This document shows positions 1-62,734 of a DNA stretch of 64,000 nt, piece by piece (positions within the stretch are counted from its first letter, which is position 1; every line of letters starts with the position of its first letter). Both the position numbers and the translations under genes were made by a program. The stretch spans positions 37,532 through 101,531 of the forward strand of contig ONEF01000009.1 of NCBI GenBank assembly GCA_900316795.1. Reading direction: 5' to 3'. The notes below the pieces were generated by a model that made no database searches, was not told the origin of the DNA, and was given only the letters and a program-made list of their open reading frames with translations. This DNA is from an uncultured Bacteroidales bacterium (GTDB taxonomy: Bacteria > Bacteroidota > Bacteroidia > Bacteroidales > UBA932).

Positions 1-1245
1 GATGTCATAAGTTCCTTCAGATATTACCACGAACTTGCTTCCGTCCCACTGGATGGCTACACAACCTTCAGGGAGCCCCATATTGCCAGGGAATCCTCTG
101 AGGTCTGCATCTTTCAAGGTCAGGGTAGCGCTGGTTCCGCTGCCGGAAACAGTTGCAAAGTCTTCTATCCTGTCTCCGATAGTTGCCAGATACAAATCAG
201 AAAAAGAGTATGGATCATATTCACTGTTTGATTTATATATGTCTCTTGTGGTACCGTTGATTTCCAGACGGGCTTGATCTGAACCTGTATTGGCCAACCC
301 CCTGTACAGGTTCTGGAGGATTACGGTCATTGAAGGACCTGAAGCTGCAAACATACCTACGCTAAGCAGCTGGTTGCGAAGGTTTCGCAAGGCAGTATTA
401 CCCTCGGCAGCATCCCAACTGAAGCTGTGGTTGAATGGACGCCAACCTCCAAACCAACCGGTAACATAATAATACCCACTAACAGCATAGTTGCCCGAAG
501 CATAGTTGCTGTTTGAGATGTTGAGCAGGCTGTTGAGCATATCTGCAAGTTTCTGGGCCTTGGAAACTATCGTGGTCTTGGTGGCGGCGTCGGCAATGAT
601 AGGCTCAGGTGAGAACGTGATGTCAGAGGCCTTGGAACCGGCATCTTCAGGTATCAGGCTGCCATAGAGGTGCTTGTACTCCTGCGTGCCCTTGGTGTAT
701 GTAGTTCCGCCTATAGACACAGGGTTATCTTCATCAGCCTTGCCATAGACAAGGAAGGAAGCTGTACCGGCGGGAACATATATGTTCTTGTAATAATGAG
801 AGTTGTTGGAATTGACCAACCCGCGGAAAGTACCGGAAGAACCGTCGTTTCCGAAGGTTTTGTCTATACCTGCGTAAGGAAGGGTGAGATAGTCTCCCAG
901 GCGGTGGTCATTCGGGCGGACCTCTCTCTGGACATCAAACGGAAGGAAGTAGATGTCGCTCATGCCGCGGAAGGAAGAAGGGCTTCCGTCTGCCTGGGCT
1001 ACGCTGGAGAGTGTCTTTGTGGCCGGAGAGTAATTGACATCCTTCATCCCGAAGGCAAGGGAAACCGGGAAACCGGAAGGCTCCACCTCATTTCCTCCTT
1101 CAGGATTCTGGTTTTCAGGTGCGGTGCTCTTGCTGCACGCAGCCACCACCAATATCAGGGCTGATACTGATATCATCCCCATCGCCGATGAAACTTTCCT
1201 CAGCGATGATGTTATTTTCCAAATATATTTGCGTGCAACCTTCAT
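1..1245 (-). CDS. Fimbrillin-family lipoprotein (C-terminus beyond window)
   Basis: Minus-strand frame open from an ATG at 1245 to the window edge, at least 415 codons, so the gene is partial. The N-terminus is a long lipoprotein signal ending VVAAC (about residues 31-35). The mature part contains SFRGMSDIYFLPFD, the FRGi-n-i-pf block typical of the FimA/Mfa fimbrillin superfamily in Bacteroidales, after a Lys-Thr-rich start (ATKTLSS). It is last in a co-directional run of DUF3575/OmpA-like protein, large fimbrillin and Mfa2-like anchor, so an accessory or tip subunit is the natural reading. Secretion as a lipoprotein and polymerisation on the outer membrane are known for the family; the exact role here is inferred. 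An octamer TCAGCGAT sits at 1200-1207 in its signal region, read as Ser-Leu-Arg. Confidence 0.72.
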   Translation of the reverse strand, partial: MKVARKYIWKITSSLRKVSSAMGMISVSALILVVAACSKSTAPENQNPEGGNEVEPSGFPVSLAFGMKDVNYSPATKTLSSVAQADGSPSSFRGMSDIYFLPFDVQREVRPNDHRLGDYLTLPYAGIDKTFGNDGSSGTFRGLVNSNNSHYYKNIYVPAGTASFLVYGKADEDNPVSIGGTTYTKGTQEYKHLYGSLIPEDAGSKASDITFSPEPIIADAATKTTIVSKAQKLADMLNSLLNISNSNYASGNYAVSGYYYVTGWFGGWRPFNHSFSWDAAEGNTALRNLRNQLLSVGMFAASGPSMTVILQNLYRGLANTGSDQARLEINGTTRDIYKSNSEYDPYSFSDLYLATIGDRIEDFATVSGSGTSATLTLKDADLRGFPGNMGLPEGCVAIQWDGSKFVVISEGTYDI

Positions 1246-1343
1246 TATATCTTTATTGTGTTTATCTGCTTAATTCTTTTTTTGCGGTTCCTTTGTCGCT
1301 TTCCCGTTCGTGAACGGTTAGCTGAACCGTTGTTCTTTTTCTG

Positions 1344-6774: not shown

Positions 6775-6779
6775 ATTAG

Positions 6780-6970: not shown

Positions 6971-8416
6971 CTAGCAGAAAAATGACAGTACTTCTGTTAT
7001 AGGGAGAGTGGTCTGCTCTCCGGTTTCCAGATTCTTTATGTTTACTGTCTGGGCTTGAATTTCAGACTCCCCTGCTATTATAAGGAACGGAATACGGTTT
7101 TTCTCCGCATACTCAAACTGCTTCTTCAGCTTGGTCTGATCCGGATAGAGCTCGCAACCAATGCCGTTTGACCTCAGCCGGGATGCCAGTGGAAGAAGGT
7201 ATCCGGCAGACTTTTCATCCATATTGGACAGCAGGACCTTTGTACCACCTATCGCCTCTTTAGGGAACTTGTCCAGGCCACTCAGAACATCGTAGATGCG
7301 GTCTGCTCCGAAGGAAATTCCCACACCGGAAACATCAGGAAGCCCGAAGATGCCAGTCAGGTTGTCGTACCTTCCGCCACCGCAGATGCTTCCGATGGCA
7401 AAATCCAGAGCCTTCACTTCAAAGATGGCCCCGGTATAATAGTTAAGTCCACGCGCCAGAGAAAGGTCAACTTCCACTTTCTGGGAAATGTTTGCCTCAG
7501 CGATGTACCCAAACAACGTCTTGAGTTCCTCCACTCCTTTGCGCCCCGTCTCACTGTCTTTTAAGACATCGCTGATGAGGGAGAGTTTTTCCTCTGTAGT
7601 GCCGCTGAAAGTGAGAACCGGCTCCAGGATGGAGAAGCCTTTTTCGTCAACGCCCTGGGAGAGCATCTCCTCCTTGACAGCCTCAAGGCCTATCTTGTCT
7701 ATCTTGTCCATCGCGATGGTGATTTCCACCAGCTTTTCCGGGAAGCCCATCACTTCAGCCAATCCGGCCAGGATCTTGCGGTTGTTTATCTTGATGCACA
7801 CATTCACGCCAAAGATCCCGAAGACCTGATCAACTATCTGTACGAGTTCCAGCTCGTTGAGAAGGCTACGGCTACCGATGACATCCACATCGCACTGATA
7901 GAACTCGCGGTAGCGGCCCTTCTGAGGACGGTCCGCCCTCCAGACAGGCTGGATCTGATAGCGTTTGAACGGGAAAGTTATCTCGTTGCGGTGCTGGACC
8001 ACATATCTTGCAAACGGAACCGTAAGGTCATACCTGAGACCTTTTTCGCACACCTTCAGGCTCAGGGCATTGCTGTTCAACGATGGAGCACCAGCAGCGG
8101 CATAAGCTCCAGCAACTTCAGCGCCGGAAGCGGATGAGTCTGCCGGGTACGTTATAAGTTTCTGGAAATCGTCAACGGAAATCTTGGAGAAAGCGTCACC
8201 GCTGTTCAGCACCTTGAAAAGAAGCTTGTCGCCTTCCTCACCGTACTTGCCCAGAAGAGTGGACAGGTTCTCCATTGACGGAGTCTCTATCGGCTTGTAG
8301 CCGAACTTCTTGAATACACTCTTGACGGTGTCGAATATGTAGTTTCTTCCGGCCATCTGCTCCGGAGAAAAATCCCTTGTGCCCTTTGGAATGCTTGGTT
8401 TCTGTACTTGTGCCAT
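6971..8416 (-). CDS. hisS: Histidyl-tRNA synthetase
   Basis: 481 aa class II synthetase that charges tRNA-His. The signature [12 protein letters not shown] is at residues 10-21; motif 2 is seen as [10 protein letters not shown] (172-181) preceded by [19 protein letters not shown] is the HisA motif. The C-terminal anticodon-binding domain follows ([11 protein letters not shown] onward). It has an Ala/Ser-rich insertion at about residues 91-116, between [11 protein letters not shown] and [11 protein letters not shown], that I do not expect in the family. The start codon at 8416 lies inside the repeated octamer (TCAGCGATG), and two more octamers (7497, 7568) are in the gene. It is separated by 77 bp from nfnB upstream. 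Confidence 0.95.
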
Positions 8417-8493
8417 CGCTGAATAATAACAAAATAACTATATGTAGGCTAAAGCCTATGCAAAGATAACAAGATTTACTGAGCTGCCGGTTG

Positions 8494-10008
8494 TTATTGC
8501 TCTTTCCCCTCGAGGTAGCGGTGGATGGCGGCGGCGGCTTTGCGCCCTTCCCCCATCGCAAGGATCACGGTTGCAGCTCCGGTGACAACATCCCCTCCGG
8601 CAAAGACCCCCTTGCGAGAAGTCGCTGTTTCCGTGGTCACGAGCCTTCCCTTCCGGTCCGTGTCCAAGCCGGGAGTCGTGTCGGCTATCAGATGGTTGAT
8701 CTTGGTGCCGAGCGCCACTATCAGAGCGTCTGCCTCAATGTCAAACTCCGAACCCTGGATTGGAACCGGACTACGGCGGCCGCTCTCGTCAGGCTCTCCG
8801 AGTTCCATGCGAATGCAGCGGATGCCCCTCACCCAGCCGTTTTCATCGCCGAGCACCTCCACCGGATTAGTCAGAAACTGGAAGTTGATGCCCTCTTCCT
8901 TGGCATGATGAACCTCCTCTGCCCTGGCGGGAAGCTCCTTTTCGCTTCGGCGATATACTATTGTAACCTCTGCCCCCAGCCTGAGCGCAGTACGGGCGGC
9001 ATCCATAGCCACGTTGCCGCCGCCAACCACGCAAACTTTCTTTGCCCTGAAGATCGGAGTGTCAGAATCCTTGCTGAAGGCCTGCATGAGATTGTTGCGG
9101 GTCAGATATTCATTTGCAGAAAAAACACCGTTGAGGTTCTCCCCCGGAATGCCGAGGAACAGCGGAAGACCAGCACCTGTCCCCACAAATACCGCTTTGA
9201 AGCCTTCCTTGTCCATAAGCTCGTCTATGGTAACCGTACGGCCTACAAACACATCGGTTTCTATCTTGATTCCGGCATCCAGAAGTTTCTGTATCTCCCT
9301 CTCCACCACCGCCTTCTTTGGAAGCCTGAACTCAGGGATTCCGTATGTCAGCACTCCACCTGCTTTGTGCAGGCTCTCGAAAATGGTTACACTGTAGCCA
9401 AGCTTTGCAAGGTCAGACGCGCAAGCCAACCCGGCAGGACCACTCCCCACAACAGCAACCTTCACCCCCCTATCGCTAATCCCATCCTCAAAATCTCCGC
9501 AGCAACCATCCTTCCCAGCACCCTCACAGCAAACATCCTCCTCAACCACCGTGCAGCAACCAACCTTCCCAACACCCTCACAGCAAACGCCCGTCCGCAT
9601 CTTCTCAACTCCTTCACCAGCATCTGCATTCTCCCGGCTATAGTCGGCGACAAACCGCTCCAGTTTTCCTATAGATACGGGCTGCCCCTTAACTCCCAGG
9701 ATGCAGCTGCCCTCGCACTGAGTCTCCTGCGGACAAACCCTGCCACAGATTGCTGGAAGAGAACTGTCTTCAGATATTATGTCGTAGGCGCCTTTGAAGT
9801 TCCCCTCCAAAACCTGATGTATAAAAGCCGGAATCTTTATGCCCACAGGACAAGCCTCCACGCATCTTGGCTTCTTGCACCTCAGGCATCTGGACGCCTC
9901 AAGCTGAGCCTCCTCGGCGTTGTACCCGTAACAAACCTCTTCAAAGTTTGTCGCCCTTACTTTCGGATCCTGTTCCCTTACCGGAACCCTGTCTATCTTG
10001 TTTGCCAT
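8494..10008 (-). CDS. nfnB: NfnB/GltD-like NADPH:ferredoxin oxidoreductase subunit with Cys-rich insertion
   Basis: 504 aa, homologous to the small subunit of glutamate synthase and to NfnB/SudA. The N-terminal Fe-S domain has CLRCKKPRCVEACPVG (41-56) and CGRVCPQETQCEGSC (88-102), ligands for two 4Fe-4S clusters. The FAD-binding GSGPAG is at 188-193 and an NADPH site VVGGGNVAMDAARTA follows. Beside the NfnA-like gene it most likely forms the electron-bifurcating NADH-dependent ferredoxin:NADP+ oxidoreductase; older annotations would say glutamate synthase. Odd: residues 125-180, the linker between Fe-S and FAD domains, carry an 18-residue duplication containing CCEGxGKxGCC twice, adding eight cysteines. 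This is encoded by a 54-bp direct repeat. Confidence 0.87.
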   Translation of the reverse strand: MANKIDRVPVREQDPKVRATNFEEVCYGYNAEEAQLEASRCLRCKKPRCVEACPVGIKIPAFIHQVLEGNFKGAYDIISEDSSLPAICGRVCPQETQCEGSCILGVKGQPVSIGKLERFVADYSRENADAGEGVEKMRTGVCCEGVGKVGCCTVVEEDVCCEGAGKDGCCGDFEDGISDRGVKVAVVGSGPAGLACASDLAKLGYSVTIFESLHKAGGVLTYGIPEFRLPKKAVVEREIQKLLDAGIKIETDVFVGRTVTIDELMDKEGFKAVFVGTGAGLPLFLGIPGENLNGVFSANEYLTRNNLMQAFSKDSDTPIFRAKKVCVVGGGNVAMDAARTALRLGAEVTIVYRRSEKELPARAEEVHHAKEEGINFQFLTNPVEVLGDENGWVRGIRCIRMELGEPDESGRRSPVPIQGSEFDIEADALIVALGTKINHLIADTTPGLDTDRKGRLVTTETATSRKGVFAGGDVVTGAATVILAMGEGRKAAAAIHRYLEGKEQ

Positions 10009-10186
10009 ATCAAAACATTTACCAAATGATTCATATAATACTCCCGTGGCACTTATTTTCCTGAGTATCTGTTACTTAACTATAGAACCCCTAAGTGGTT
10101 CATCGTATGGCAAAGATACTTAATCTACTAAATATCAGTATAATAACTGCCACGCCTCAGCGATTCACCAGCCGGCGAATCTCCTG
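10009..10186. other. Spacer between nfnA and nfnB
   Basis: 178 bp with no supported ORF. It contains octamer TCAGCGAT at 10157-10164, running into a small inverted repeat (GATTC ... GAATC) just after the nfnA stop, which may weaken read-through from nfnA to nfnB. No clear promoter was identified. Confidence 0.35.
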
Positions 10187-11074
10187 CTATCGCCGCAGCA
10201 CAAGGCCGGCGGCAGCGTTTGCTTCCTGTTCCTGCTTCCTGTACAAAGTCTGGCGGCGCATGGCCTCGTCAAAGTCCACATCGTATCCGTTGAACTCCGG
10301 CCCGTCCACGCAGGCGAACATTGTCTTTCCGGCCACGCTGACCCTGCATGCTCCGCACATTCCGGTTCCGTCAACCATCAAGGTGTTAAGGCTCACCGTT
10401 ATCGGCAGCCCGAGTTTCTTTGCCGTAAGCGTCGCAAACTTCATCATCACCATCGGGCCGATGGCAACGCACATGTCATACGAAAGTGCGCCCTCAGTCC
10501 CTTTTGCAGTACTCGAAGAAGCATCGCCACACAGACGCTCCATCAGGAGGGTCACCACGCCCTTCTCTCCCTTTGAGCCATCGTCTGTACAGATGTACAG
10601 GTTGGTGCAGGCTTCTTTCATCTCATCTTCCATAATGATGAGGTCCTTGTTCCTGGCACCTATGATAACATCCACGTGCGCACCCTTTTCAAACAGGTAT
10701 TTTGCCTGGGGATATACAGGTGCAGCTCCTACTCCACCGGCAACAAACAGATAGCGTTTACCTTTGAGATCTCGTTCCGGGAGTTCCATGAAATCCGAAG
10801 GTTTACCGAGCGGGCCGGCTACATCGCAGAGGAAATCCCCAACATTCATCTGACAGATCTTGTTGGATGATACGCCTGCTATCTGAATCACTATCCTGAC
10901 AGCTCCCCTTTCCGGGTCATAATCGCAGATGGTCAGAGGCACTCTCTCCCCGTTGTCGGACGGCCTAACTATCAGGAATTGTCCTGGCTTTGCGCTCTCA
11001 GCGATGCGAGGAGCCTCTACCCACATGGAGTAAATAAGTGGTGTAAGCTGCTGCTTTTCTAAAATTCTAAACAT
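10187..11074 (-). CDS. nfnA: NfnA: DHODB-like FAD/NAD/2Fe-2S subunit
   Basis: 295 aa of the sulfide dehydrogenase/dihydroorotate dehydrogenase electron-transfer family. It has an N-terminal FAD-binding barrel, GGVGAAPVYP for NAD(H) binding near residue 114, and the C-terminal 2Fe-2S ligands in MVDGTGMCGACRVSVAGKTMFACVDGPEF (about 227-257). This CGACR...C arrangement is typical of NfnA/SudB. It precedes nfnB on the same strand with a 178-bp gap. Together they would couple NADH and reduced ferredoxin to NADP+ reduction, fitting a fermentative anaerobe. An Ala/Glu-rich C-terminal extension (QEQEANAAAGLVLRR) ends the protein. Octamer at 10998-11005, read as Ile-Ala-Glu. Confidence 0.87.
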   Translation of the reverse strand: MFRILEKQQLTPLIYSMWVEAPRIAESAKPGQFLIVRPSDNGERVPLTICDYDPERGAVRIVIQIAGVSSNKICQMNVGDFLCDVAGPLGKPSDFMELPERDLKGKRYLFVAGGVGAAPVYPQAKYLFEKGAHVDVIIGARNKDLIIMEDEMKEACTNLYICTDDGSKGEKGVVTLLMERLCGDASSSTAKGTEGALSYDMCVAIGPMVMMKFATLTAKKLGLPITVSLNTLMVDGTGMCGACRVSVAGKTMFACVDGPEFNGYDVDFDEAMRRQTLYRKQEQEANAAAGLVLRR

Positions 11075-11191: not shown

Positions 11192-13885
11192 TTAAGCCCC
11201 CTGCAGGTCTTTGAAGGTCTTGAAGGTGTAGCCTTTTTTCTTCAGGTACATGATAATCTCCCTAACGCGGTTGTACAGGCGGTCACTTTCAGGGCGGGAT
11301 TCTTCAATGCCGGGATGGATCAGGATTATGGCACCGTTAAGTGTATGTTTGGCCTCGTAAGCAAAGAGGCGGTCTATCAGTTTCTGGGCATCCACGTAAG
11401 AGCTCATGGATGGTATGGTGTAGTCTGCCGGTGTAGCCGTTCCCTGGGTGTAGTTAATCGGGATGTAGCCTGCACGGGAGAGAATGTTCACAGATTCTGT
11501 GTTGTAGTGCTCGTAAGGCGGCAGCAGGAACCTGGACTGGCTCTGAAGAACGCCGAATTTCTCCAGTTCCCTGGCATTGAGACGAATGTCTGCATAGATA
11601 CTGTCTTTGGATACGAGCATTGAGTCTCTGTTGCCGTCCCAAGGAGCATAGAGAAGATGTTTGTCTGAATGGCCGCTTACATAATGGCCTTCGCTGACAA
11701 TCTTCTGTATGATTTCCTGGAACTCAGGTTTGCGGAGGGCGTTGCCGGTAAAGAAGAAAGAGCCCTTCACTTTCTCCTTGGCCAACTGTTTGAGAATCTT
11801 CTCTCCACCGTTGAACATTTCGTCGGCAGAGAAGATCAGGTAGATTTCCTTCTTTGACGGGTCCAGCCTGCGGATTGCTCCATAGCTATCCTTTACAGCT
11901 TTGTGTAGAAAGCTGGAAGAAGCGCCGGAAGGGAGGTTGCCGGACGGCACACCACCGGAAAGGCTGTTTGCGCTCATTTTCTGAAGGTTACCATCCTGCT
12001 CCAATGTGGCGAAGTAATATGTCAGACCTGCCGTACCATCCATGGTTGGCTCATTGGTTGCATAGTCACCGATGTCGTTATGGTAAACGGCTATGCCTCG
12101 GTTCAGGGCAGGAGTCTTGTCCGGCTCCCTGAGACCGCCTCCGGCTCTGGAGGAGAAAATGAAATTATAAACCGGACCGTCTATCAGTCCGCCGGTTATC
12201 TCCCTGTGTTCCAAAGTGAAGGCCGAATGGGGCAATGTAGGCAGAGTACCGCCTTTCGGATAGCCTATTATCATTGAGACACCCCAAGGGTTGCAGCCGA
12301 GGAGCCAGTCTCTTAGGGCCGCTTCCATCTCCAGGTATGTGGAGTCTCCGGTAAGCCTGCGGTAGAGCTGAGCCTGGGTGACGGCTGCGCTGGTAAGGTT
12401 GTTGGAACACCACAGGTATGGAACGCCGTGCATGAACGGATCGTCCCCGGCACGGTTCCGGAGGTCCTGCAGGCCTTCTTTCATGAATTCAGTGTATTTG
12501 AGCTTGAGGGCCTCGTCTCCTGCCTCAGCCTGGAGGAAATGGCCGAGGTTTATGAACGGGTAGAACTGGTAGTGCCTGCCTCTTCCGAGCTCTATCCACG
12601 GAGAAACCGGTTCCTGCTCCCCGTAGTAGTCTGCTTCTTCCTGGTATGCAGGATTTTTTGTGGTGGAGTAGAGTGTGGCGGCAGCCAGCTCCACGTCATC
12701 TGTCCAGGTGTCTTCCTCGTAGAAGTATCTTGATATGTAGCAGGCGGTCTGGGTGTTGCCTGGAACCTCTTTGGCATATTCATAGGCAGGAGCGGCCTTG
12801 GCGGCAATCTGGCGCGCAAACTGAGGGTCTATCGCAGAGAACACTTCTCCGCCAAGGGCGAAAGCTGAAGCGAACTTGCCTGCTGCTGAAGACACTCCGG
12901 TGGTGCGGTTCTTCCCGAACTTGCCCATCCCCTGAGGCTTGCCGGTCAGGTAATATACGGGACGCCCGTTGCCCGGGCCCCAACCGTAGTCTGCTGTGTC
13001 GAACTGCGGAGGTTTGAAGCCGATATGATCTCTGTCATCAGCGATCTGGGTGAACATCACCCTGTCTTCAGGATTCATCTTGACCAACCAGTCCAATCCC
13101 CAGCGGGCCTGGTCCAGAATGTCGGGAACTCCATTTGCACCTGGCCTGCCGTCTGCCTGGAACCTGTCAGCGAACACGCTCTTGTCCTCTATCCACTTCC
13201 ACGCGAACATCATGTGGTATGTAGCGGTGGCGCTTGTAGTCTGATACTGAAGGTAGTCTGAGGCATCGTGCCAGCCTCCCCTGACATCTATCTTCTCGCC
13301 GTTGCGGTCCGGATGATCCACTATGTAGCCGTCCAGCTGGTGGCAGAGGGTATCTGTGAACGGGTTGTAGCCGCACTGCTGCTGCCTCATGTAATAGAGC
13401 AGGATGTCAGCCGCGCCGTCATAGACGTCCGCCCCTATCTTGAATATAGGGGAATAAGCTCCCTTGAACCTGATATAATAGCCTCCTGGTTTCTGGAAAG
13501 CGGTGAAATTGAGCCTATACGCATCTTTGACAGCCCACTTGGAACCATCTGCCTGATCCGCCCTGCCGGAAAAGACCGGAAGATCTGTCACGGCATCAAA
13601 CACCACGAACTCTTCATTTGAAGAGCCGCGGTTACCATCAGTCAGACGGCTGTCCAAATCAACTTTCCCCGGCCTCCTTGTCCAAGCTGTCTGCCCGGAA
13701 GCGGAAACTTGGGTATCAAGCTTTTCAGCTTGGTCCAAAGGCTCATCCACGGACTTCTCCTCAAAATAGACTGCAACCTTCACGCTCTTTGGAAGATAGC
13801 CTACATAGTTGATTCTGATGTGCTTCTGCGCCAAAACAGCAACGCTCAAAAAAATCGCTGAGAAAAACAGAAATAATCTTTTCAT
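11192..13885 (-). CDS. Secreted GH9 glycoside hydrolase fused to a polysaccharide deacetylase-like (CE4) domain
   Basis: 897 aa from the ATG at 13885, where a clean signal peptide begins (MKRLFLFFSAIFLSVAVLAQ); the frame stays open upstream but without homology. An Ig-like CelD_N domain comes first (IRINYVGYLPKSVKVAV). A GH9 catalytic domain follows: GGWHDASDY carries the general-base aspartates, LLGCNPWGVS is conserved, and YATNEPTMDGTAG carries the acid glutamate. After a short Ser/Gly linker, the last 220 residues resemble NodB/CE4: KVKGSFFFTGNAL, the metal-binding HSDKH, and LLPPYEHYN. The usual motif 1 TFDD reads FSADE, so the first metal-binding Asp may be altered. Likely a periplasmic or surface enzyme on beta-glucan; substrate unknown. 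Confidence 0.82.
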   Translation of the reverse strand: MKRLFLFFSAIFLSVAVLAQKHIRINYVGYLPKSVKVAVYFEEKSVDEPLDQAEKLDTQVSASGQTAWTRRPGKVDLDSRLTDGNRGSSNEEFVVFDAVTDLPVFSGRADQADGSKWAVKDAYRLNFTAFQKPGGYYIRFKGAYSPIFKIGADVYDGAADILLYYMRQQQCGYNPFTDTLCHQLDGYIVDHPDRNGEKIDVRGGWHDASDYLQYQTTSATATYHMMFAWKWIEDKSVFADRFQADGRPGANGVPDILDQARWGLDWLVKMNPEDRVMFTQIADDRDHIGFKPPQFDTADYGWGPGNGRPVYYLTGKPQGMGKFGKNRTTGVSSAAGKFASAFALGGEVFSAIDPQFARQIAAKAAPAYEYAKEVPGNTQTACYISRYFYEEDTWTDDVELAAATLYSTTKNPAYQEEADYYGEQEPVSPWIELGRGRHYQFYPFINLGHFLQAEAGDEALKLKYTEFMKEGLQDLRNRAGDDPFMHGVPYLWCSNNLTSAAVTQAQLYRRLTGDSTYLEMEAALRDWLLGCNPWGVSMIIGYPKGGTLPTLPHSAFTLEHREITGGLIDGPVYNFIFSSRAGGGLREPDKTPALNRGIAVYHNDIGDYATNEPTMDGTAGLTYYFATLEQDGNLQKMSANSLSGGVPSGNLPSGASSSFLHKAVKDSYGAIRRLDPSKKEIYLIFSADEMFNGGEKILKQLAKEKVKGSFFFTGNALRKPEFQEIIQKIVSEGHYVSGHSDKHLLYAPWDGNRDSMLVSKDSIYADIRLNARELEKFGVLQSQSRFLLPPYEHYNTESVNILSRAGYIPINYTQGTATPADYTIPSMSSYVDAQKLIDRLFAYEAKHTLNGAIILIHPGIEESRPESDRLYNRVREIIMYLKKKGYTFKTFKDLQGA

Positions 13886-14012: not shown

Positions 14013-14042
14013 GCAGTTGTAAGAAAAATAACACTCAGCGAT

Positions 14043-33357: not shown

Positions 33358-33398
33358 CCTAAATCGCTGAGGAAGGAAGGACGAACAAGATATTCAAA

Positions 33399-34454: not shown

Positions 34455-34560
34455 CTGCCCTTTATAGTGCTAATTCTCAGCGATTTATTAAAAGTCCTTC
34501 CGCTGTTTTTAGCCGAAGGACTTTTATCAATAAGCTTATATTCAATAACTTAAGCGGCAG
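34455..34560 (+). repeat. 106-bp element, copy C (carries the octamer)
   Basis: Ends CTGCCCTTTAT and TTAAGCGGCAG. It has an 11-bp perfect stem AAAAGTCCTTC / GAAGGACTTTT (34490-34500 with 34515-34525). Octamer TCAGCGAT is at 34477-34484, element positions 23-30. Compared with copy B, two stem pairs have changed on both sides (positions 40/67 and 41/66), so pairing is preserved. It ends one base from the stop codon of the phosphodiester glycosidase gene. Confidence 0.87.
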
Positions 34561-37888: not shown

Positions 37889-37955
37889 ATTCAATCTTGG
37901 CGTCAATCGCACAAATTTACAAATAAAAACGAGTTGCTTTGTCATCGCGATGGAG

Positions 37956-41122: not shown

Positions 41123-41198
41123 TTACTTGATTTTTTAGTGTTTGCTCCTTAAATTTGCAGCCAAATTTCTTTATCGCGATACAAATTTACAAAATATA

Positions 41199-44950: not shown

Positions 44951-45061
44951 AAAGCAAATCGCTGATTATTAATATGTTAAAGAAATGAGGGTATGCGGAT
45001 TTGCATAAAGCAAAAAACGATAAAAACCAGATTATCAAATAGTTGTTAAACACGCTCAAAC

Positions 45062-48164: not shown

Positions 48165-48242
48165 ATTTATCTACTTTATAATCAGCGATTTATCAAAAAC
48201 GCCCGGACAGCAACCCCAGGCCATCGTTCGCCCGGGCGGCAA

Positions 48243-49670
48243 TCATTCAGAAGAAGAGTCTGGGAGTATCATCTTCACGTCCGAGTTCCAGTCGTACTTC
48301 TGGTAGTATGTAGTGAGCGTGGCTTCCTCAGGGTTGTTTATGTAGCAGCTCAGACCGGAGAACTTGGCCGGATCTATCGCGAGTGTTATCATCTGGCCTG
48401 TAGTGTACTTTGCTGTTACAGCCTTCTGGAGCGCCGAGGTAAAAGCGGCTGTTTCAGAACTGCCGCACAGGTTGTCAAGGAAATCTTTCAGGTCATAGAA
48501 CCAATGGTCGTTGTATCTGAAATATCTCTGTACGGTTGTCACATCCAGAGATGCAATGCCATCGCGATAAATATCAAAGAGCTTTGAAGCTTCTTCAGCG
48601 ACGGCCTCCAGTTCAGAGCACTTTACCGTGGAAATGGTAACAGAGCGGTATTCTCCTGACTGTGCGGCGTAATAGTCATATACTTCCTTGGATACTCCGT
48701 TGTAGTCTCCGTTTACCATCTTCTCAATCACTTTGTCATACGGGAAACTGTCTGTGAGCATCTCTGCCGGGGAAGAAATGAAATAATCGCAACTGTTCCT
48801 CAACTGATAAGCTATCTCGATGCCGCCCATCAGGCAGGCGTCTATCGCTATGAAGTCAAAGTGGGTATCTCCCAATGCTTCCTGCACATCAAAGATGGAC
48901 ATCTCTACTCTGCTTTCGCTTCCGAAAGACTTGACCATGTGGGCATAAGGATCCACCCCGTTTTCAGGTTCCGGGAAGAGAGTCTTGCCATTCCTGACGG
49001 CTCCGACGCTGGAACCTGATGAAGTTGCTGCAGTTGAAACTCCGGCAGAAGAACTTCCGGAAAGAGGTTCCTTCTTTCCATAATAAAGACGGGCATAGGC
49101 CGCCTCACGTTTAGCCTCATCTTCTGAAGTTGACGGGTCCAATGTATAGTAGCCTGTTGGAAGCCAGCCTGTTCCGTGAGACCAGAGCACCAGTCCGTAA
49201 GATGTTGCCGGACACATTGTCTTTGTGATGTTAAGCACGGACTTCATGGCGTTTTTTGTACAGGAATTCTGGTACGGGAACTTGTAAAGCGTATCTAACT
49301 GCCTGTTGCCGTTCTTGTCTTTGTACATGTTCACAAGCACCGGCAGGGTGTCTTTCATCTGGAAAGTTTTAAGGTCAAAGTTGTTGCTGTATATGACAAT
49401 GTTGGCATCGTCCGGAAGGTATCCGTTAACTATCTTGTTTATGTTGGAAGCAGCATCAACTGCCAGGTTGTTGTGTGAAGCAAAGTACAGAAGCAAAGTC
49501 TTGCTTCTTTCCTCAAAAACCACCTCTTTGGGTTCTACCTTGGAGCAGGAGGAAAACAATGCAAGTACCGCAACACAGACGGCTGAAGCTAACCACGCAC
49601 ACCGGAAACATTTGACCCTGAAAGAGGATTCTGTTTCTGTCATTCTTCTTCTGAAAACGATCATATTCAT
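48243..49670 (-). CDS. Clostripain-like (C11) cysteine peptidase, lipoprotein
   Basis: 475 aa; the start may be 49670 or the ATG at 49643, before a lipoprotein signal with LFSSC. C11 motifs: YGLVLWSHGTGWLP with the catalytic His (about 165) and FDFIAIDACLMGGIEIAYQLRNSCDYFISSPAE with the catalytic Cys (DACLMG). Members cleave after Arg or Lys and are activated by self-processing. A Ser-rich stretch (SGSSSAGVSTAATSSGSSVG) lies between the two catalytic segments, where self-cleavage could occur. Exported, likely anchored to the outer membrane; substrate unknown. Confidence 0.86.
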   Translation of the reverse strand: MNMIVFRRRMTETESSFRVKCFRCAWLASAVCVAVLALFSSCSKVEPKEVVFEERSKTLLLYFASHNNLAVDAASNINKIVNGYLPDDANIVIYSNNFDLKTFQMKDTLPVLVNMYKDKNGNRQLDTLYKFPYQNSCTKNAMKSVLNITKTMCPATSYGLVLWSHGTGWLPTGYYTLDPSTSEDEAKREAAYARLYYGKKEPLSGSSSAGVSTAATSSGSSVGAVRNGKTLFPEPENGVDPYAHMVKSFGSESRVEMSIFDVQEALGDTHFDFIAIDACLMGGIEIAYQLRNSCDYFISSPAEMLTDSFPYDKVIEKMVNGDYNGVSKEVYDYYAAQSGEYRSVTISTVKCSELEAVAEEASKLFDIYRDGIASLDVTTVQRYFRYNDHWFYDLKDFLDNLCGSSETAAFTSALQKAVTAKYTTGQMITLAIDPAKFSGLSCYINNPEEATLTTYYQKYDWNSDVKMILPDSSSE

Positions 49671-49999: not shown

Positions 50000-50665
50000 A
50001 TGGAAAAGAGCAAATTCTCCAAACCACTGGATGAGAACCTTGGAGCATCCATCCGCTCATACATCAATATGCAGGTTGACAGAGCCGCCCTCAAAGGCGC
50101 TGAAAAAATGTCTCTGCTGTCCAACAAAGCCATCGTCACCGTGATACTTCTCCTGGTGGGGACCATCTTTGTTTTCCTCCTCGGGATTGCTGCCGGATAT
50201 TTCTTCGGAGGACTTTTGGGAAGCCTTTCCCTCGGATTCCTTTGTGCAGCAGCTTTGGTGCTTGTAGTGGGAGTTGCGGTGTTCCTGCTCAGGAAGAAAC
50301 TCTTCATAAACGGGCTGGCCAAAATGTACTCCGGCATGCTGCTCGGCGATGACCGGACTTCCAACATGAAGGAACTCAACCTCCGCCAGCAGTTTGTAGA
50401 GACCCGCATCCAGGACAAGGAAGAAGATATTGCCGCCGAGTACAAGATGCTGAAGAACATGCTCAATCCGTTCTACTACTTGAGCAATGTGGCTGACAAG
50501 ATCAGAGACATCTTCCGCGGAAAGGACAAGGATACGCCTCCTACAGAAGACATAAAGACCGCATCTTCAGCGACTAGGACTGGAGCGGACGATGTGCGTG
50601 CTTCTGAGGAAGTAGACAAAGGTTCTGATCAGGCAGAAGAAAACTATCAGAACAGGCAGTTCTGA
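50000..50665 (+). CDS. Two-helix membrane protein, phage-holin-3_6/YqjE-like
   Basis: 221 aa. Cytoplasmic amphipathic start (LGASIRSYINMQVDRAALKGAEKMSLL), two adjacent membrane helices (IVTVILLLVGTIFVFLLGIAAGYFFGG and LSLGFLCAAALVLVVGVAVFLL, about residues 47-98), then a charged region that includes a coiled coil and an amphipathic NPFYYLSNVADKIRDIF, and a polar tail. The two-helix hairpin with preceding amphipathic helix resembles the YqjE/holin_3_6 group, often associated with stress or cell-envelope functions. Function unknown. Confidence 0.68.
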   Translation: MEKSKFSKPLDENLGASIRSYINMQVDRAALKGAEKMSLLSNKAIVTVILLLVGTIFVFLLGIAAGYFFGGLLGSLSLGFLCAAALVLVVGVAVFLLRKKLFINGLAKMYSGMLLGDDRTSNMKELNLRQQFVETRIQDKEEDIAAEYKMLKNMLNPFYYLSNVADKIRDIFRGKDKDTPPTEDIKTASSATRTGADDVRASEEVDKGSDQAEENYQNRQF

Positions 50666-52831: not shown

Positions 52832-53875
52832 TTGAACACCGGGATCAAAGATACCATCGACAAGCTGAAGGCCGGGCTCGACATTTCTGATGCCGAGCTG
52901 GCTCTGCTTGTCAGGGAGACCGGTGAAAACTATCTCAGGGAGTGTGCCGACAAGGTCAGGAGAGAGAACTATTCAGACAAAGTTTTCCTGAGGGGCCTGA
53001 TTGAGTTCACCAACTACTGCAAGAACGACTGCTATTACTGCGGAATAAGGAAAAGCAACATCTTTTCTCAGCGATACAGACTTTCGCAGGAACAGATACT
53101 GGACTGCTGCAAAGAAGGCTATGAACTGGGATTCAGGACATTCGTGCTGCAGGGAGGGGAGGATCCATACTTCACAGACGACAGGATCTGCTCAATTGTC
53201 TCCGCCATTAAAAAAGCCTATCCGGACTGCGCAGTAACACTCTCGACCGGTGAGAAAGAGTATTGCAGCTACAAAAGGTTTTTTGAGGCCGGGGCGGAAA
53301 GATACCTTTTAAGGCATGAGACGGCAGACCCCGTGCACTACCGCAAACTCCACCCGGAAAGCCTCAGTCTGGAACACAGGAAAGAATGTCTTTTCAACCT
53401 CAAAAGCATAGGATACCAGGTAGGCTCAGGTTTTATGGTCGGCTCCCCGTTCCAAACCACAAGTAACATCGTGGAGGACCTCAGGTTTCTCCAGAAACTG
53501 CAGCCTGACATGATAGGTATCGGCCCTTTTGTAGCCCACTCACAGACACCGTTCGCCTCCTGTCCAAACGGCAGCTTGGCACTGACTCTCAGGCTTATAT
53601 CCATTCTCCGGCTGATGTTCCCTTATGCTTTGATTCCATCCACCACAGCCCTTGGTACCATACATCCCCGGGGCCGTGAACTGGGGCTCAAAGCCGGAGC
53701 CAACGTGGTGATGCCCAACCTCTCTCCGGTTGATGTCAGAAAAAAATACGAACTGTACGACAACAAGATATGCACTGGGGAAGAATCAGCCCAATGCAGG
53801 AGTTGTCTGGAAGCCAGAATCGTCTCCGCTGGCTACAAAGCTGTCACAGACCGGGGAGACGTAGTGCCTCACTGA
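52832..53875 (+). CDS. hydE: [FeFe]-hydrogenase maturase HydE (radical SAM)
   Basis: 347 aa, TTG start at 52832 because no ATG or GTG lies in frame before conserved sequence. Radical-SAM cluster motif FTNYCKNDCYYCGI (CxxxCxxC, residues about 65-74). TFVLQGGEDPYFTD, TLSTGEK, RYLLRHETADP and GSGFMVGSPFQTT follow HydE rather than biotin synthase or PylB. HydE acts with HydF and HydG to build the H-cluster diiron site; those are not in the window. It implies that the organism has an [FeFe] hydrogenase. The C-terminal CTGEESAQCRSC could bind a second cluster. Octamer at 53068. Confidence 0.88.
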   Translation: MNTGIKDTIDKLKAGLDISDAELALLVRETGENYLRECADKVRRENYSDKVFLRGLIEFTNYCKNDCYYCGIRKSNIFSQRYRLSQEQILDCCKEGYELGFRTFVLQGGEDPYFTDDRICSIVSAIKKAYPDCAVTLSTGEKEYCSYKRFFEAGAERYLLRHETADPVHYRKLHPESLSLEHRKECLFNLKSIGYQVGSGFMVGSPFQTTSNIVEDLRFLQKLQPDMIGIGPFVAHSQTPFASCPNGSLALTLRLISILRLMFPYALIPSTTALGTIHPRGRELGLKAGANVVMPNLSPVDVRKKYELYDNKICTGEESAQCRSCLEARIVSAGYKAVTDRGDVVPH

Positions 53876-55215: not shown

Positions 55216-56664
55216 CTAAATGTCAGGAGTCATATCTGCATCTTCAGCCCTGCGGCCGGTAATGACAGGAATCTCATCATCAGACTCTTTGTCCAGTTGC
55301 TTGGACCAAAGGTATTTTCTGGTTTCCCTGACCAAGACTCCACTGAGCAGGAGCAGGGAGATTATGTTCGGAATTGCCATCAGGCCGTTGAGGATGTCTG
55401 CAAAGTTCCAGACCATCTCAAGATTCATCACGGCTCCTATGTAAATCAGAACTATCCAAACAATACGATAGATAAATACCGTCCTCCTTCCGGCCAGGTA
55501 CTCCACACTCCGTTCCGCATAGTAGCTCCATCCCAAAATCGTTGAAAAGGCAAATGTGGCAAGGCTGATGGTAAGGATAATGGACCCCACGTAAGGTATC
55601 TGCCCGAATGCCATCTGGGTAAGTTTGGCACCGTCCTTATAGTCAATGCCTGGATTTGAATAGATGCTGGAAACCAGGACAAGGCCGGTCAGTGCGCATA
55701 CAATCACCGTGTCCCAGAAAGTCCCGGTAGAAGAAACCAGAGCCTGGCGGACCGGATTCTTGGTCTGGGCTGCCGCAGCTGCGATAGGAGCGGAACCCAT
55801 ACCGGATTCGTTGGAAAACAGGCCTCGGGCTATTCCGTAGCGGCAGGCCATCATTACGGTAAAACCTGCAATTCCTCCAGCCCCGGCTTTGGCCGTGAAG
55901 GCAGACTTGAATATCAAGGAAAGGGTTTCTCCGAGCACGCTCCAGTTCATACCAAGTATAATCAGGCATCCGAGCACGTAAAATATGGCCATGAAAGGAA
56001 CCAGAAGCCCGCAAACCCTGGCTATTCCCTTTATCCCGAAGAAGGTTACCAGCATCACCAGGAAAGCCACTGCAATTCCGGTCCAGTATTTAGGGATGCC
56101 CGCAAAGGAAGGGCCGAACAAGCCTTCCTGATCCAGCAGGGTGGAAATGGCGTTGGACTGCACCAGGTCTCCGATCCCGAAGGCGGCAAGTGCAGCCAGA
56201 ACGCAGAACAACACCGCAAGGAATTTGCTCTTCACTCCCCTTTCCAAGGCATACATAGGACCGCCGAGCATCGTCCCCTTTGCCGTCCTCACCCTGTACT
56301 TTATGGCAAGAAGACCTTCACTGTATTTTGTGGCTATACCCAGGACTCCTGTCAGCCAGCACCAAAGAACAGCACCCGGACCTCCCAAGGACACTGCTGT
56401 AGCTACCCCTATGATGTTTCCTGTACCTATTGTGGCCGCAAGGGAAGTGGTCAAGGCACCGAACTGGCTCACGTCACCGGCCGCACCCTTATCCCTCTTG
56501 AAAGAGATTCTGATGGCTTTGAAAACATATCGCTGAGGAAACCTCAACCTGACAGTCAGGAAGATATGCGTTCCCACAAGTAAGATTATCAGGGGCCAGC
56601 CCCAGAGGAAATCGCTGAATGACTTGATGTACGAACCTAGAATAGAGATGAAACTGTCTTCCAT
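55216..56664 (-). CDS. Sodium:alanine symporter (AGCS family)
   Basis: 482 aa from the ATG at 56664; a longer form from 56700 would begin with TTG. About eleven membrane helices. Family blocks: GALTTSLAATIGTGNIIGVATAVSLGGPGAVLWCW, AMFKYSEGLLAIKYR-like TKYSEGLLAIKYR, IARGLFSNESGMGSAPIAAAAAQT, and FGWSYYAERSVEYL-like LGWSYYAERSVEYL. Imports alanine or glycine with Na+. It converges on the CE7 gene. Two octamers lie near its N-terminal coding end (56529, 56611), both within 90 bp. Confidence 0.92.
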   Translation of the reverse strand: MEDSFISILGSYIKSFSDFLWGWPLIILLVGTHIFLTVRLRFPQRYVFKAIRISFKRDKGAAGDVSQFGALTTSLAATIGTGNIIGVATAVSLGGPGAVLWCWLTGVLGIATKYSEGLLAIKYRVRTAKGTMLGGPMYALERGVKSKFLAVLFCVLAALAAFGIGDLVQSNAISTLLDQEGLFGPSFAGIPKYWTGIAVAFLVMLVTFFGIKGIARVCGLLVPFMAIFYVLGCLIILGMNWSVLGETLSLIFKSAFTAKAGAGGIAGFTVMMACRYGIARGLFSNESGMGSAPIAAAAAQTKNPVRQALVSSTGTFWDTVIVCALTGLVLVSSIYSNPGIDYKDGAKLTQMAFGQIPYVGSIILTISLATFAFSTILGWSYYAERSVEYLAGRRTVFIYRIVWIVLIYIGAVMNLEMVWNFADILNGLMAIPNIISLLLLSGVLVRETRKYLWSKQLDKESDDEIPVITGRRAEDADMTPDI

Positions 56665-58487: not shown

Positions 58488-58566
58488 ATGCCAAATACGG
58501 CGTCTCGCCCCAAAGTGCCGGACAACAAATGAGATAATCGCTGAAGATTTTGTATATTTGTCAGTT

Positions 58567-60075: not shown

Positions 60076-61730
60076 TGAAAAGGAGAGCCGCCATATATAT
60101 TTTCATATTCGCGATGCTTCTCCCTCTGATGGCATTGAGGGAGTTCACCCCCGCCAATGAGCTCAGATACCTTAACATTGTAGATGAAGCCCTTTCCAAC
60201 GGCAACTTCATCACTTTCTACGACCATGGTATGCTTTATGCGGACAAGCCGCCGCTTTATTTCTGGTTTGCCATGCTGCTGAAGAAGGTCTTCGGTTTCC
60301 ACTCGATGTTTTTGCTGAGCTGCCTTCTGAGCCTTGTCCCTGCTTTTATAACCAGTTGGATCATGGACCGGTGGACAGAAAGCAAGCTGAAAGGTGAAGA
60401 AAGTGCGGCAGCCCTTCTGATGCTTCATTCAAGCGTAATGTTTCTGGCTTCCTCCATAGTCTTGAGGATGGATATGCTGATGTGCATGTTCATAGTTCTT
60501 GCCCTGTACACCTTCGGCAAGATGTACGCCAACAAGTCTGGAGCCAGGGACGCAAAGGAGGGAGTCACATCCCACGAGGCCAGACTGTTCAGAAGAGACA
60601 GGATACTTCTCCCGATATATGTTTTCCTTGCAATATTCTCAAAGGGAGCAGTAGGATTTCTGGCACCTGTCTTGTGCATAATTGTCTTCTGCCTCAGCGA
60701 CAAGGAACTACGCATTGGACGGTATCTTGGATGGAGGTTCTGGGGCATACTGGTTGCCCTCTGCGCCATCTGGTGGACCGGAGTCTATTTTGAGGGCGGG
60801 AAAGACTACCTGAACAACCTCCTTTTCCACCAGACGGTTGACCGCGGAGTGAATTCCTTCCACCACAAGGCTCCTTTCTGGTACTACCTGGCAGGATACT
60901 GGTGGATTGCCGCCGTATGGAGTGTCCTCTGCATAGTCCTGATAATCAAGGGATGGAGGAAAAGGATGCTGGGCGGAATCAGGATCCACCTTATGGTGGT
61001 GACTTCTCTGAGCATCCTTGTGATGCTTTCTCTGGTAAGCTCCAAAATCGCAATCTATCTGCTTCCGGCACTGCCGTTTTTCATCTACGGAGGAGCTCTC
61101 ATGCTCCCTTATTTCAAGGATGACAAGCTGGTCAGGGGAATCGTTGCCGCAGTTGCCTGGATATTCATCGTCATAGGCATAGCCTCCATCTTCAAACGCC
61201 TGGCCGTTCCGGAAAACCTTGCCGAAACACTTCCTAAGCTCTGGGCCCCTTATTGGGTGATACTTCTTCCACTGGCTCTTGGAGGACTGCTAGCCCTGAA
61301 GATGCTCAAGAACAGGAACACCTGCTTTGCCATCTCCATAATTTCCGCATCTTTGTTTGTCACCATCTTCCTTGGCAGTTTCTCAATGAATGAGATCAAC
61401 AAGATGCTTGGGGCAAAAGAAGGATGTCTGGAGGCCTCACGCATCGCTGAGCAAAAGCAGAAACCACTGCTTTACTACAGTTTCAGCGCTGCCCCTAACA
61501 TGGACTATTACTTCAAGCAGAACGGACAGCAGATAAAAGAGCTGGATTCGGCAGGCCTTTCTAACCTTGAAAACGGAATCCTGTTTTTCAAGGAGCGCAG
61601 GATAAAGAGAGATTCCACCCTCAGGCAAAGGCTTGAAGGGAAAGAATATACAAGATTAGGAGACAATATCTGCTATGCAGAGTTCTCCTCTGAGAAAGAC
61701 AACCCTGAAGATAACAAAGAAGAACAATGA
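60072..61730 (+). CDS. GT39/ArnT-like membrane glycosyltransferase
   Basis: 552 aa, about twelve membrane helices. Starts ALREFTPANELRYLNIVDEALSNGNFITFYDHGMLYADKPPLYFWFAML, the ArnT/PMT pattern with an acidic residue (RE) in the first periplasmic loop and the DKPPLYFW motif. Uses polyprenyl-linked sugars to modify lipid A or another envelope acceptor at the periplasmic face. The C-terminal quarter is soluble. Start and stop overlap the flanking genes by four bases each (ATGA), a sign of translational coupling. Octamer at 61443, read as Ile-Ala-Glu. Confidence 0.86.
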   Translation: MMKRRAAIYIFIFAMLLPLMALREFTPANELRYLNIVDEALSNGNFITFYDHGMLYADKPPLYFWFAMLLKKVFGFHSMFLLSCLLSLVPAFITSWIMDRWTESKLKGEESAAALLMLHSSVMFLASSIVLRMDMLMCMFIVLALYTFGKMYANKSGARDAKEGVTSHEARLFRRDRILLPIYVFLAIFSKGAVGFLAPVLCIIVFCLSDKELRIGRYLGWRFWGILVALCAIWWTGVYFEGGKDYLNNLLFHQTVDRGVNSFHHKAPFWYYLAGYWWIAAVWSVLCIVLIIKGWRKRMLGGIRIHLMVVTSLSILVMLSLVSSKIAIYLLPALPFFIYGGALMLPYFKDDKLVRGIVAAVAWIFIVIGIASIFKRLAVPENLAETLPKLWAPYWVILLPLALGGLLALKMLKNRNTCFAISIISASLFVTIFLGSFSMNEINKMLGAKEGCLEASRIAEQKQKPLLYYSFSAAPNMDYYFKQNGQQIKELDSAGLSNLENGILFFKERRIKRDSTLRQRLEGKEYTRLGDNICYAEFSSEKDNPEDNKEEQ

Positions 61731-62734
61731 AAATACTTTTGACAGGAGCAGCAGGATTTATAGGTTCCCATACCGCAGTGGAACTGGTCAAAAGAGGCCA
61801 TACCGTAGTGGGAATCGACAACATGAACTCCTACTATGACCCATCTTTGAAGAAGGCAAGACTTTCATACATAAGAAAACGCGCCAAACAACTCCAGTCT
61901 GGAGAAGAGAGTACGCCGGTCAGAAGCGCCGGGAAGTTTTCGTTCACACAAAAAGACATCGCGGACCTTCCTGCTATGGAAAAAGTCTTCCGTGAGGGCA
62001 GGTTCGACAAAGTATGCAACCTGGCTGCCCAGGCAGGAGTAAGATATTCCTTTGAGAACCCTGCAAGCTACATCCACAGCAACCTCATAGGTTTCTTCAA
62101 CATACTGGAACTCTGCACCAAGTACAAGGTAAAGCATCTTGTATATGCAAGTTCTTCAAGCGTCTATGGCAACAATGCCAAAGTTCCGTTTGAGGAGGGA
62201 GACCGCACGGACGATCCTCAGAGCCTGTATGCCGCCACCAAGAAATCCAACGAGCTGATGGCCCATGTCTATACCCACCAGCGGAATCTCCCGACAACCG
62301 GCCTGAGGTTCTTCACCGTCTATGGCCCTTGGGGAAGACCGGACATGGCACCGTTCAAGTTCATGAAGAAAATCCTCAGCGATGAGCCTATAGACGTCTA
62401 TAACAAAGGCAACCTCAGCCGAGACTTCAGCTACATAGATGACATCGTCAAAGGAATCGTTGCCGTCATCGAAGGCCCGGACAAGTCAAAACGCCCCGTT
62501 TACAACATCGGCAACAGCCATCCGGTACAACTTATGGATTTCATCGCGACAATTGAAAAAACAGCCCGAAAAAAGGCAAAAAAGGTGATGAAAGGAATGC
62601 AACCGGGAGATGTTTACACTACATTTGCATCCACTTCGGCTCTGGAAGAAGATTATGCCTTCCGCCCCGACACTCCACTTGAAAAAGGCATCGCCGAGTT
62701 CTACAACTGGTACAAAGTTTTTTACAAAATATAA
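61727..62734 (+). CDS. UDP-glucuronate 4-epimerase-like SDR
   Basis: 335 aa, extended SDR. NAD-binding GAAGFIGSH at residues 7-15, catalytic SSSSVYG and YAATK (Ser/Tyr/Lys), substrate part GLRFFTVYGPWGRPDMAPFKFMKKIL. The VVGIDNMNSYYDPSLKKARL and TVYGPWGRPDMA blocks are typical of UDP-GlcA 4-epimerases, which yield UDP-galacturonic acid. Given the upstream transferase genes, it may supply the sugar donor. The stop overlaps the alr start by one base (TAATG). Octamer at 62376, read as Leu-Ser-Asp. Confidence 0.87.
   Translation: MKILLTGAAGFIGSHTAVELVKRGHTVVGIDNMNSYYDPSLKKARLSYIRKRAKQLQSGEESTPVRSAGKFSFTQKDIADLPAMEKVFREGRFDKVCNLAAQAGVRYSFENPASYIHSNLIGFFNILELCTKYKVKHLVYASSSSVYGNNAKVPFEEGDRTDDPQSLYAATKKSNELMAHVYTHQRNLPTTGLRFFTVYGPWGRPDMAPFKFMKKILSDEPIDVYNKGNLSRDFSYIDDIVKGIVAVIEGPDKSKRPVYNIGNSHPVQLMDFIATIEKTARKKAKKVMKGMQPGDVYTTFASTSALEEDYAFRPDTPLEKGIAEFYNWYKVFYKI

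Follow-up and report, generated by a model that had tools for sequence, protein, structure and literature searches.

An iterated octamer with lineage-specific dialects in a Bacteroidales genus: a candidate DNA uptake sequence

The window considered here is a 64-kb stretch of the genome of an uncultured Bacteroidales bacterium (contig ONEF01000009.1; G000:C7:37532-101531), the source genome, G000, being a 2.32 Mb draft in 27 contigs. The closest relatives of one protein encoded in it come from uncultured Bacteroidales and Bacteroidia, several from rumen or gut. The window holds hisS-like, GH9-like, S49 peptidase-like and adenylosuccinate lyase-like genes, and through its genes and the gaps between them runs an octamer, TCAGCGAT, in 35 exact copies (20 on the plus and 15 on the minus strand) that span positions 1200-62383 (Table 1). 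One hundred dinucleotide shuffles of the window gave a mean of 2.05 copies and a maximum of 5. An earlier note on this DNA had counted the same 35 copies against about 2 by chance, with the same 20 to 15 split and hence no strong orientation, and had held that the whole word is favoured over the hexamer within it; the recount bears this out, AGCGAT occurring 43 times and TCAGCGAT 35 times on the two strands of the window. Among the matches listed in a literature search for the letters of TCAGCGAT, all were unrelated.

Across the source genome TCAGCGAT is present 840 times (428 and 412 by strand), compared with 4 copies of the reversed control word. Under an order-3 Markov model of 451 kb sampled from this genome, the overlapping octamer CTCAGCGA takes the top rank (150 observed vs 11.7 expected), and in an earlier 431-kb sample the top two places go to CTCAGCGA (z 39.4) and TCAGCGAT (z 39.0), in that order; the Markov ranking that the earlier note proposed thus puts the motif first in the sampled part, about one-fifth of the genome. 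Synonymous-codon shuffling of 303 predicted genes left a mean of 23.0 copies (standard deviation 4.2, maximum 33 in 60 shuffles) where 137 are observed, an approximately six-fold excess for which protein sequence offers no explanation, as had been claimed. Taken together, the Markov and shuffle results mean that the doubt raised at the outset, that the word might be unexceptional once codon and dinucleotide use are modelled, does not hold in the fifth of the genome sampled. Within genes the word was said to be used in all frames; every frame does occur, but far from equally (sense 16/38/5, antisense 39/1/41), the antisense frame with a single copy being the one that places TGA in frame. A mutational or codon bias without function, already disfavoured by the synonymous shuffles, is extremely unlikely. 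It would draw on the run of codons ATC-GCT-GAA/GAT that the opposite strand of the word can spell, and on an excess of TCAGCGAT over its reversed control, at lower density, in 23 of 24 other Bacteroidales; the six-fold excess, the mere 4 reversed copies, the fixed flanks and the distinct words of sister clades described below all speak against it.

Single-base variants of CTCAGCGAT indicate that TC and CGA admit almost no change and that the outermost letter at each end admits some, while the third letter of TCAGCGAT, the base after TC, is tolerant in the order A>G>C>T. Around TC[AG]GCGAT, T is preferred at -3 (60%) and -6 (42%). The same two preferences appear in genomes and samples of each of the three dialects defined below (A, in G000 and A4; D; and B, in G034 and B5; not significant in G010, n=23), persist when gene-internal copies alone are considered (A, G034 and B5), and are joined in G034 by a preference for T at +10 to +15. 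Since the flanks conserve nothing beyond this preference, a role as RAYT target, one of those offered in the earlier note, is unlikely; no search was aimed at RAYT genes. A DNA methyltransferase site, or another modification marking self DNA, would fit a specific word present on both strands and could be combined with uptake or restriction. Restriction sites are usually avoided rather than enriched, however, and a tolerant third base with T-preferring flanks is unusual for methyltransferases, making this explanation very unlikely.

A companion palindrome, ATCGCGAT, is also enriched, with 49 sites in the 451 kb (98 on both strands vs 4.8 expected) and 210 genome-wide in the source genome. A single site can be parsed as TC-G-CGAT in both directions simultaneously. 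The main word differs from HIP1-type palindromes in not being palindromic, whereas this companion is. In the single-contig genome G034 a further palindrome with AT-rich arms, CTGTCGCGACAG, recurs (L180-L199, e.g., L183 19131) and could be the operator of a regulator; its half, TCGCGACA, is intergenic in 23 of 42 strand-counts.

The word was followed through 37 genomes of one Bacteroidales genus, the source genome included, with the 24 other Bacteroidales for comparison. Three groups were distinguished: A, the TCAGCGAT genomes; B, the genomes of a sister word, TCCCGACA; and D, the TCNCGAT genomes. The ten A genomes carry 418-840 copies of TCAGCGAT and 25-77 of TCCCGACA, and the eleven B genomes 465-985 of TCCCGACA and 14-76 of TCAGCGAT (whole-genome counts). 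As the reversed control of TCCCGACA reaches 113 in the genus, the 25-77 copies in A genomes are background. The sister word was found by sampling 34-40 kb from each of ten TCAGCGAT-poor genomes, in five of which it was the top octamer; in G034 its nine-letter form CTGTCGGGA is found 131 times in 400 kb (1.5 expected). Sites for ATCGCGAT number 127-264 in the A genomes vs 0-47 in the B genomes. In samples of 26-127 kb, TCNCGAT exceeded expectation in G014 (40 vs 7.2), G019 (59 vs 8.3), G024 (20 vs 3.0), G026 (18 vs 1.9) and G029 (7 vs 1.6). Genome-wide, TCCCGATR reaches 561 in G013 and 563 in G014, with 249 and 144 sites for ATCGCGAT; alone it is no marker of the D set, since B genomes hold 135-829 copies and other families up to 576.

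Spacing tests resolved the B word as TC-N-CGACA (18-fold in G034), the D word as TC-N-CGAT and the A word as TC-NG-CGAT (3.4-fold for all spacer-2 words, 11-fold for TCAGCGAT), with TCGCGAT alongside. All dialects share the architecture TC-N-(G)-CGA-Y, the spacer being one base in most lineages and two in A. The genus thus has several dialects, and the word of the window represents just one of them, which the earlier note did not foresee when it proposed looking for enrichment in relatives; 10 of the 37 genomes, the source genome included, show that enrichment. Other members are less marked: the B word is moderate in G005 (229 copies vs 31 of the control) and weak in G015 (145/68), G020 (112/57), G022 (245/113), G002 (154/38) and G030 (117/57), G008 (23/48) and G035 (23/53) give no TCCCGACA signal over the reversed control, and G033 and G036 hold 98 and 110 copies of TCAGCGAT. 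None of the 24 other Bacteroidales has either word at A or B density. TAACGCA was considered as a third dialect there (L085, L108) and rejected, most copies lying in local repeat clusters (L085 6590-13248 and L108 12993-13568).

The dialects with their shared core are concordant with phylogeny, as judged from a one-gene tree of the Tex protein covering 32 genomes (G005 and G030 had no match; G013, G026 and G036, with partial genes, were excluded). The ten A genomes form one clade, which also takes in the low-count G033; outside A come G019/G029 and then G014 and G024; the B genomes G001/G034 are sister to A plus D, and the remaining B genomes lie deeper. Over the 22 grouped rows (the ten in no group were uncounted), A and B each require one change, compared with shuffled means of 7.5-7.6. 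The simplest reading of this tree, which rests on one gene and a midpoint root, would be a stepwise drift of the word in the order B to D to A.

Replication direction was taken from whether GC skew is positive or negative in blocks of at most 20 kb; on this basis, leading- and lagging-strand copies number 80 and 95 for TCAGCGAT in the source genome and 64 and 74 for TCCCGACA in G034, so that there is no leading-strand bias. Adjacent words are not co-oriented in the source genome (76 same, 80 opposite). In G034 adjacent copies of TCCCGACA lean towards opposite orientation (44 same, 75 opposite; p 0.006). Polarity of the KOPS type, towards dif, is not seen in these strand and co-orientation data, and the earlier note is upheld in taking the absence of a strong strand bias as evidence against a polar role like that of Chi or KOPS. 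A role of the Chi type, with AddAB or RecBCD as the reader and a sequence that differs between lineages as the enzyme does, is accordingly unlikely. The word resembles Chi sites in being short, abundant, non-palindromic and spread genome-wide, and lineage-specific Chi words exist in other bacteria; it departs from them in strand distribution and co-orientation, and in having been gained and lost several-fold within one genus, and to our knowledge neither T-preferring flanks nor palindromic double sites are features of Chi.

With genes called by a simple open reading frame (ORF) rule, words are in excess in non-coding sequence, both in the source genome (35 of 177 words vs 12.9% of the sequence) and, for the sister word, in G034 (38 of 138 vs 12.6%). 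Counts per 20 kb have a variance-to-mean ratio of 0.95 in the source genome, near-Poisson, and 1.43 in G034. Even spacing was considered and not retained: in G034 TCCCGACA by itself is spaced more regularly than chance would give (coefficient of variation 0.77, 0.2% of simulations), but this regularity is lost for the combined TC[CG]CGACA, and in the source genome TCAGCGAT is borderline (5.8% of simulations). Between the window and four A relatives of 78-80% DNA identity, which are not independent of one another, 7 of 28, 7 of 25, 12 of 26 and 9 of 24 words are kept, compared with 19-22% for control octamers of the same composition; in the word-poor G019 none of 18 is kept (control 12.5%). Each A relative nevertheless holds 14-20 words per 70 kb. 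Most positions thus turn over while density is kept, a pattern that fits drive on the word better than local sites fixed in place.

These distributions also bear on the proposal that a protein of the nucleoid, of replication or of segregation binds at the words. The palindromic forms ATCGCGAT and CTGTCGCGACAG (the latter with AT-rich arms in G034), both partly intergenic, would suit such a protein, as would the near-Poisson counts in the source genome. Against this, 140 of the 177 words in the source genome lie wholly in genes and in several frames, single sites turn over between relatives, and no gradient from origin to terminus is visible by eye over 20 stretches of the single-contig genome, where no formal test was applied. 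This proposal, too, is improbable.

Uptake sequences have been described for two proteobacterial families, the Neisseriaceae and the Pasteurellaceae, in the accessible portions of the literature on them (PMC3630211; PMC1939737; PMC7811141). According to the same partial sources, the Neisseriaceae DNA uptake sequence (DUS) reaches 1543 to 3770 copies per genome in several phylogeny-concordant dialects, which share a core of CTG plus an A, with some genomes lacking an obvious word (PMC3630211), and known uptake sequences show no orientation bias, an excess in non-coding DNA (PMC1939737) and AT-rich flanks (PMC7811141). The Bacteroidales words resemble the DUS in being short and abundant, in dialects that follow phylogeny around a shared core and in genomes without a word; they differ in phylum and letters, in that the dialects differ by the spacing between two parts, in that no pilus ATPase was found, and in being known from sequence alone. 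Core with AT-rich flanks, absence of orientation bias and non-coding excess are likewise shared with the Pasteurellaceae uptake signal sequence (PMC7811141; PMC1939737, as far as their accessible text goes), from which the words are set apart by an unrelated core, a preference for T on both sides of it (clearest in G034) and, again, the pilus ATPase not found. Among the papers listed in a literature search, with subscription papers mostly outside its reach, there was no report of uptake sequences in Bacteroidota.

On balance, TCAGCGAT is one clade-specific version of a bipartite word that probably acts as a DNA uptake sequence. Membership of that class is not established, because the case is one of likeness in form and behaviour, and no sign was found of the pilus apparatus on which known systems rely. 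Among the roles that the earlier note had listed without choosing, uptake is nonetheless the best supported, and Chi, KOPS and RAYT are disfavoured. In the mechanism envisaged, naturally competent cells would carry a receptor, at the surface or in the periplasm, that binds the word and so gives DNA of their own lineage an advantage in import. Provided that the cells are competent and the receptor does read the word, biased uptake with recombination, a molecular drive as modelled for Haemophilus, may have built up the copies. A dialect switch would then reflect a receptor whose specificity changed, so that two bases instead of one separate TC from CGA.

Some of the machinery for such a process is encoded in the genus. 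Matches to ComEC (PF03772) and DprA are each found in 36 of the 37 genomes, and in 23 and 22, respectively, of the 24 other Bacteroidales. Genus ComEC frames are 357-479 aa long (575 in G009), against a length of about 700 aa in many families of Bacteroidales elsewhere; one short frame lies at L219:10629-11702. A ComEA-like protein with two HHH domains is encoded 3' of a gene read as rsmI (G000, G034); it has a putative membrane anchor at its N terminus, and a linker of low complexity joins the two domains (L265, L266). Further HHH_3 matches occur in the genus, and the spacing of matches suggests that the linker varies in length.

A lead to a receptor comes from Riemerella anatipestifer, where transformation requires a PF13620 protein, predicted to be an outer-membrane protein, together with its DUF5689 neighbour (RA0C_RS04915/RS04920), according to the accessible part of the report (PMC8459023), which mentions no uptake word. 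The genus resembles Riemerella in having ComEC, DprA and an HHH protein and, in 13 A and D genomes, an operon with the domain pair; it differs in that the pair is absent from strong-dialect B genomes, and the likeness to the Riemerella proteins is by domains only. In the source genome a gene run at L300:1151-12699 (G000:C16) holds both proteins (Table 1). A short DUF5689 form and a full-length PF13620 protein, the latter searched with a profile built from 5 of the 13 genomes, co-occur in the ten A genomes (split over two contigs in G031) and in G014, G019 and G029; the pair was not found in G013, G024, G026, G033 or G036, all drafts of at least 100 contigs, and it also occurs in other Bacteroidales families. 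A longer DUF5689 protein is present instead in G012 and G018 (B) and in G015, G020, G022 and G030, and PF13620 searches of B genomes gave only distant or partial matches, those examined being read as putative other TonB-receptor-like proteins. The pair was therefore rejected as a genus-wide receptor, being absent from B genomes, and as a candidate lead the operon is confined to lineages A and D. As A plus D form one clade, its co-occurrence with the dialects may reflect a single event and proves nothing. The predicted model of the short DUF5689 protein has a low mean pLDDT (61) and weakly matches OB-fold proteins (among them POT1 and HIN DNA-binding domains and lysyl-tRNA synthetases), with five structure matches at E <=0.001 and TM by query <0.3; a sequence search of solved structures with the DUF5689 alignment gave only short beta-catenin peptides (E >=0.68). 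The gene run could serve DNA scavenging equally well, uptake being a possible function.

Several observations weigh against the uptake reading. ComEC of the source genome is short (357 aa), and its match to the family model covers the N-terminal to middle part only. In none of the 37 genomes did a type II secretion/type IV pilus ATPase (PF00437) score above the Pfam cut-off (secretins and pilins were not searched), so that a type IV pilus is unlikely and no receptor of the ComP type is expected. Competence genes also occur in the word-less or weak-word genomes G008, G035, G015 and G020 and in other families. They therefore show capacity at most; loss of these genes in word-poor genomes was looked for and not seen, and the pattern of presence only with competence genes, which the earlier note would have taken to indicate uptake, is not what is found. 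The short DUF5689 form is absent from all 11 B genomes, including the strong-dialect G034, where another receptor would be needed. The pooled retention of 35 of 103 words is a modest excess over controls, of which a purely fluid drive needs none. Finally, depletion of the word in acquired DNA is weak or absent: the atypical quarter of genes holds 0.36 words/kb vs 0.62 for the typical quarter in the source genome, and 0.52 vs 0.53 in G034. Some word-poor stretches of G034 contain genes read as putative SusC/SusD and glycan genes.

A broader proposal, which we regard as possible but doubtful, is that Bacteroidota possess a pilus-independent self-recognition code, in which the genus would sort incoming DNA by a bipartite word, a change of spacer from one to two bases would separate lineages sexually, and an outer-membrane channel with a tandem OB-fold DNA-binding lipoprotein would be the reader in derived lineages. 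Bacteroidota dominate many guts, and if uptake is indeed the role, exchange of genes among gut commensals would depend on a readable word, the receptor of that word would represent a new class, and the intermediate dialects that living species preserve would allow direct tests of how such a code evolves.

Table 1. Copies of the word, its variant and the companion palindrome in the window, and the genes of the L300 run.
Feature	Position	Strand	Context
TCAGCGAT	1200..1207	+	
TCAGCGAT	7497..7504	+	in hisS-like gene 6971-8416
TCAGCGAT	7568..7575	-	in hisS-like gene 6971-8416
TCAGCGAT	8415..8422	-	start of hisS-like gene
TCAGCGAT	10157..10164	+	intergenic
TCAGCGAT	10998..11005	+	in DHOD electron-transfer-like gene 10187-11074
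TCAGCGAT	13038..13045	+	in GH9-like gene 11192-14275
TCAGCGAT	13854..13861	-	in GH9-like ORF 11192-14275
TCAGCGAT	14035..14042	+	in overlap of ORFs 11192-14275 / 13893-15869
TCAGCGAT	15725..15732	-	in S49 peptidase-like gene 13893-15869
TCAGCGAT	15916..15923	+	in PP-loop family gene 15875-17737
TCAGCGAT	18093..18100	+	in ORF 17965-18996
TCAGCGAT	20730..20737	+	in ORF 19808-21286
TCAGCGAT	25982..25989	+	in ORF 25264-26058
TCAGCGAT	26804..26811	+	in ORF 26619-27560
TCAGCGAT	28989..28996	-	intergenic
TCAGCGAT	32665..32672	+	in gene 30363-33224 (IF-2-like by reading of sequence)
TCAGCGAT	33083..33090	-	in gene 30363-33224 (IF-2-like by reading of sequence)
TCAGCGAT	33363..33370	-	intergenic
TCAGCGAT	33421..33428	+	in ORF 33399-34346
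TCAGCGAT	34477..34484	+	intergenic
TCAGCGAT	36997..37004	+	in ORF 35729-37150
TCAGCGAT	39430..39437	+	in adenylosuccinate lyase-like gene 39366-40706
TCAGCGAT	39771..39778	-	in adenylosuccinate lyase-like gene 39366-40706
TCAGCGAT	40245..40252	+	in adenylosuccinate lyase-like gene 39366-40706
TCAGCGAT	40433..40440	-	in adenylosuccinate lyase-like gene 39366-40706, fourth copy there
TCAGCGAT	43946..43953	-	in ORF 43269-44615
TCAGCGAT	44958..44965	-	intergenic
TCAGCGAT	48182..48189	+	intergenic
TCAGCGAT	53068..53075	+	in ORF 52832-53875
TCAGCGAT	56529..56536	-	in ORF 55216-56700
TCAGCGAT	56611..56618	-	in ORF 55216-56700
TCAGCGAT	58537..58544	-	in ORF 58465-59304
TCAGCGAT	61443..61450	-	in ORF 60072-61730
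TCAGCGAT	62376..62383	+	in ORF 61727-62734
Variant TCGGCGAT	1181..1188	-	
Variant TCGGCGAT	8845..8852	-	
Variant TCGGCGAT	8947..8954	+	
Variant TCGGCGAT	26754..26761	-	
Variant TCGGCGAT	36233..36240	-	
Variant TCGGCGAT	40617..40624	-	
Variant TCGGCGAT	47881..47888	+	
Variant TCGGCGAT	50343..50350	+	
Variant TCGGCGAT	62690..62697	-	
Companion palindrome ATCGCGAT	7710..7717	.	
Companion palindrome ATCGCGAT	20864..20871	.	
Companion palindrome ATCGCGAT	34218..34225	.	
Companion palindrome ATCGCGAT	37944..37951	.	
Companion palindrome ATCGCGAT	38538..38545	.	
Companion palindrome ATCGCGAT	41173..41180	.	
Companion palindrome ATCGCGAT	48561..48568	.	
L300 gene run, gene 1			1070-aa protein, read as lipoprotein
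L300 gene run, gene 2			BACON/Endonuclease_NS protein
L300 gene run, gene 3			Exo_endo_phos_3 protein
L300 gene run, gene 4			980-aa PF13620 protein, putative outer-membrane barrel (no barrel family match)
L300 gene run, gene 5			335-aa DUF5689 protein, lipoprotein-like start
L300 gene run, gene 6			M3 peptidase

A second over-represented word, weaker than the first, was also noted: CAAGATAG occurs in 16 copies in the window (2.7 expected), and AGATAGAC in 57 copies in the 451 kb sampled from the source genome (17.6 expected).

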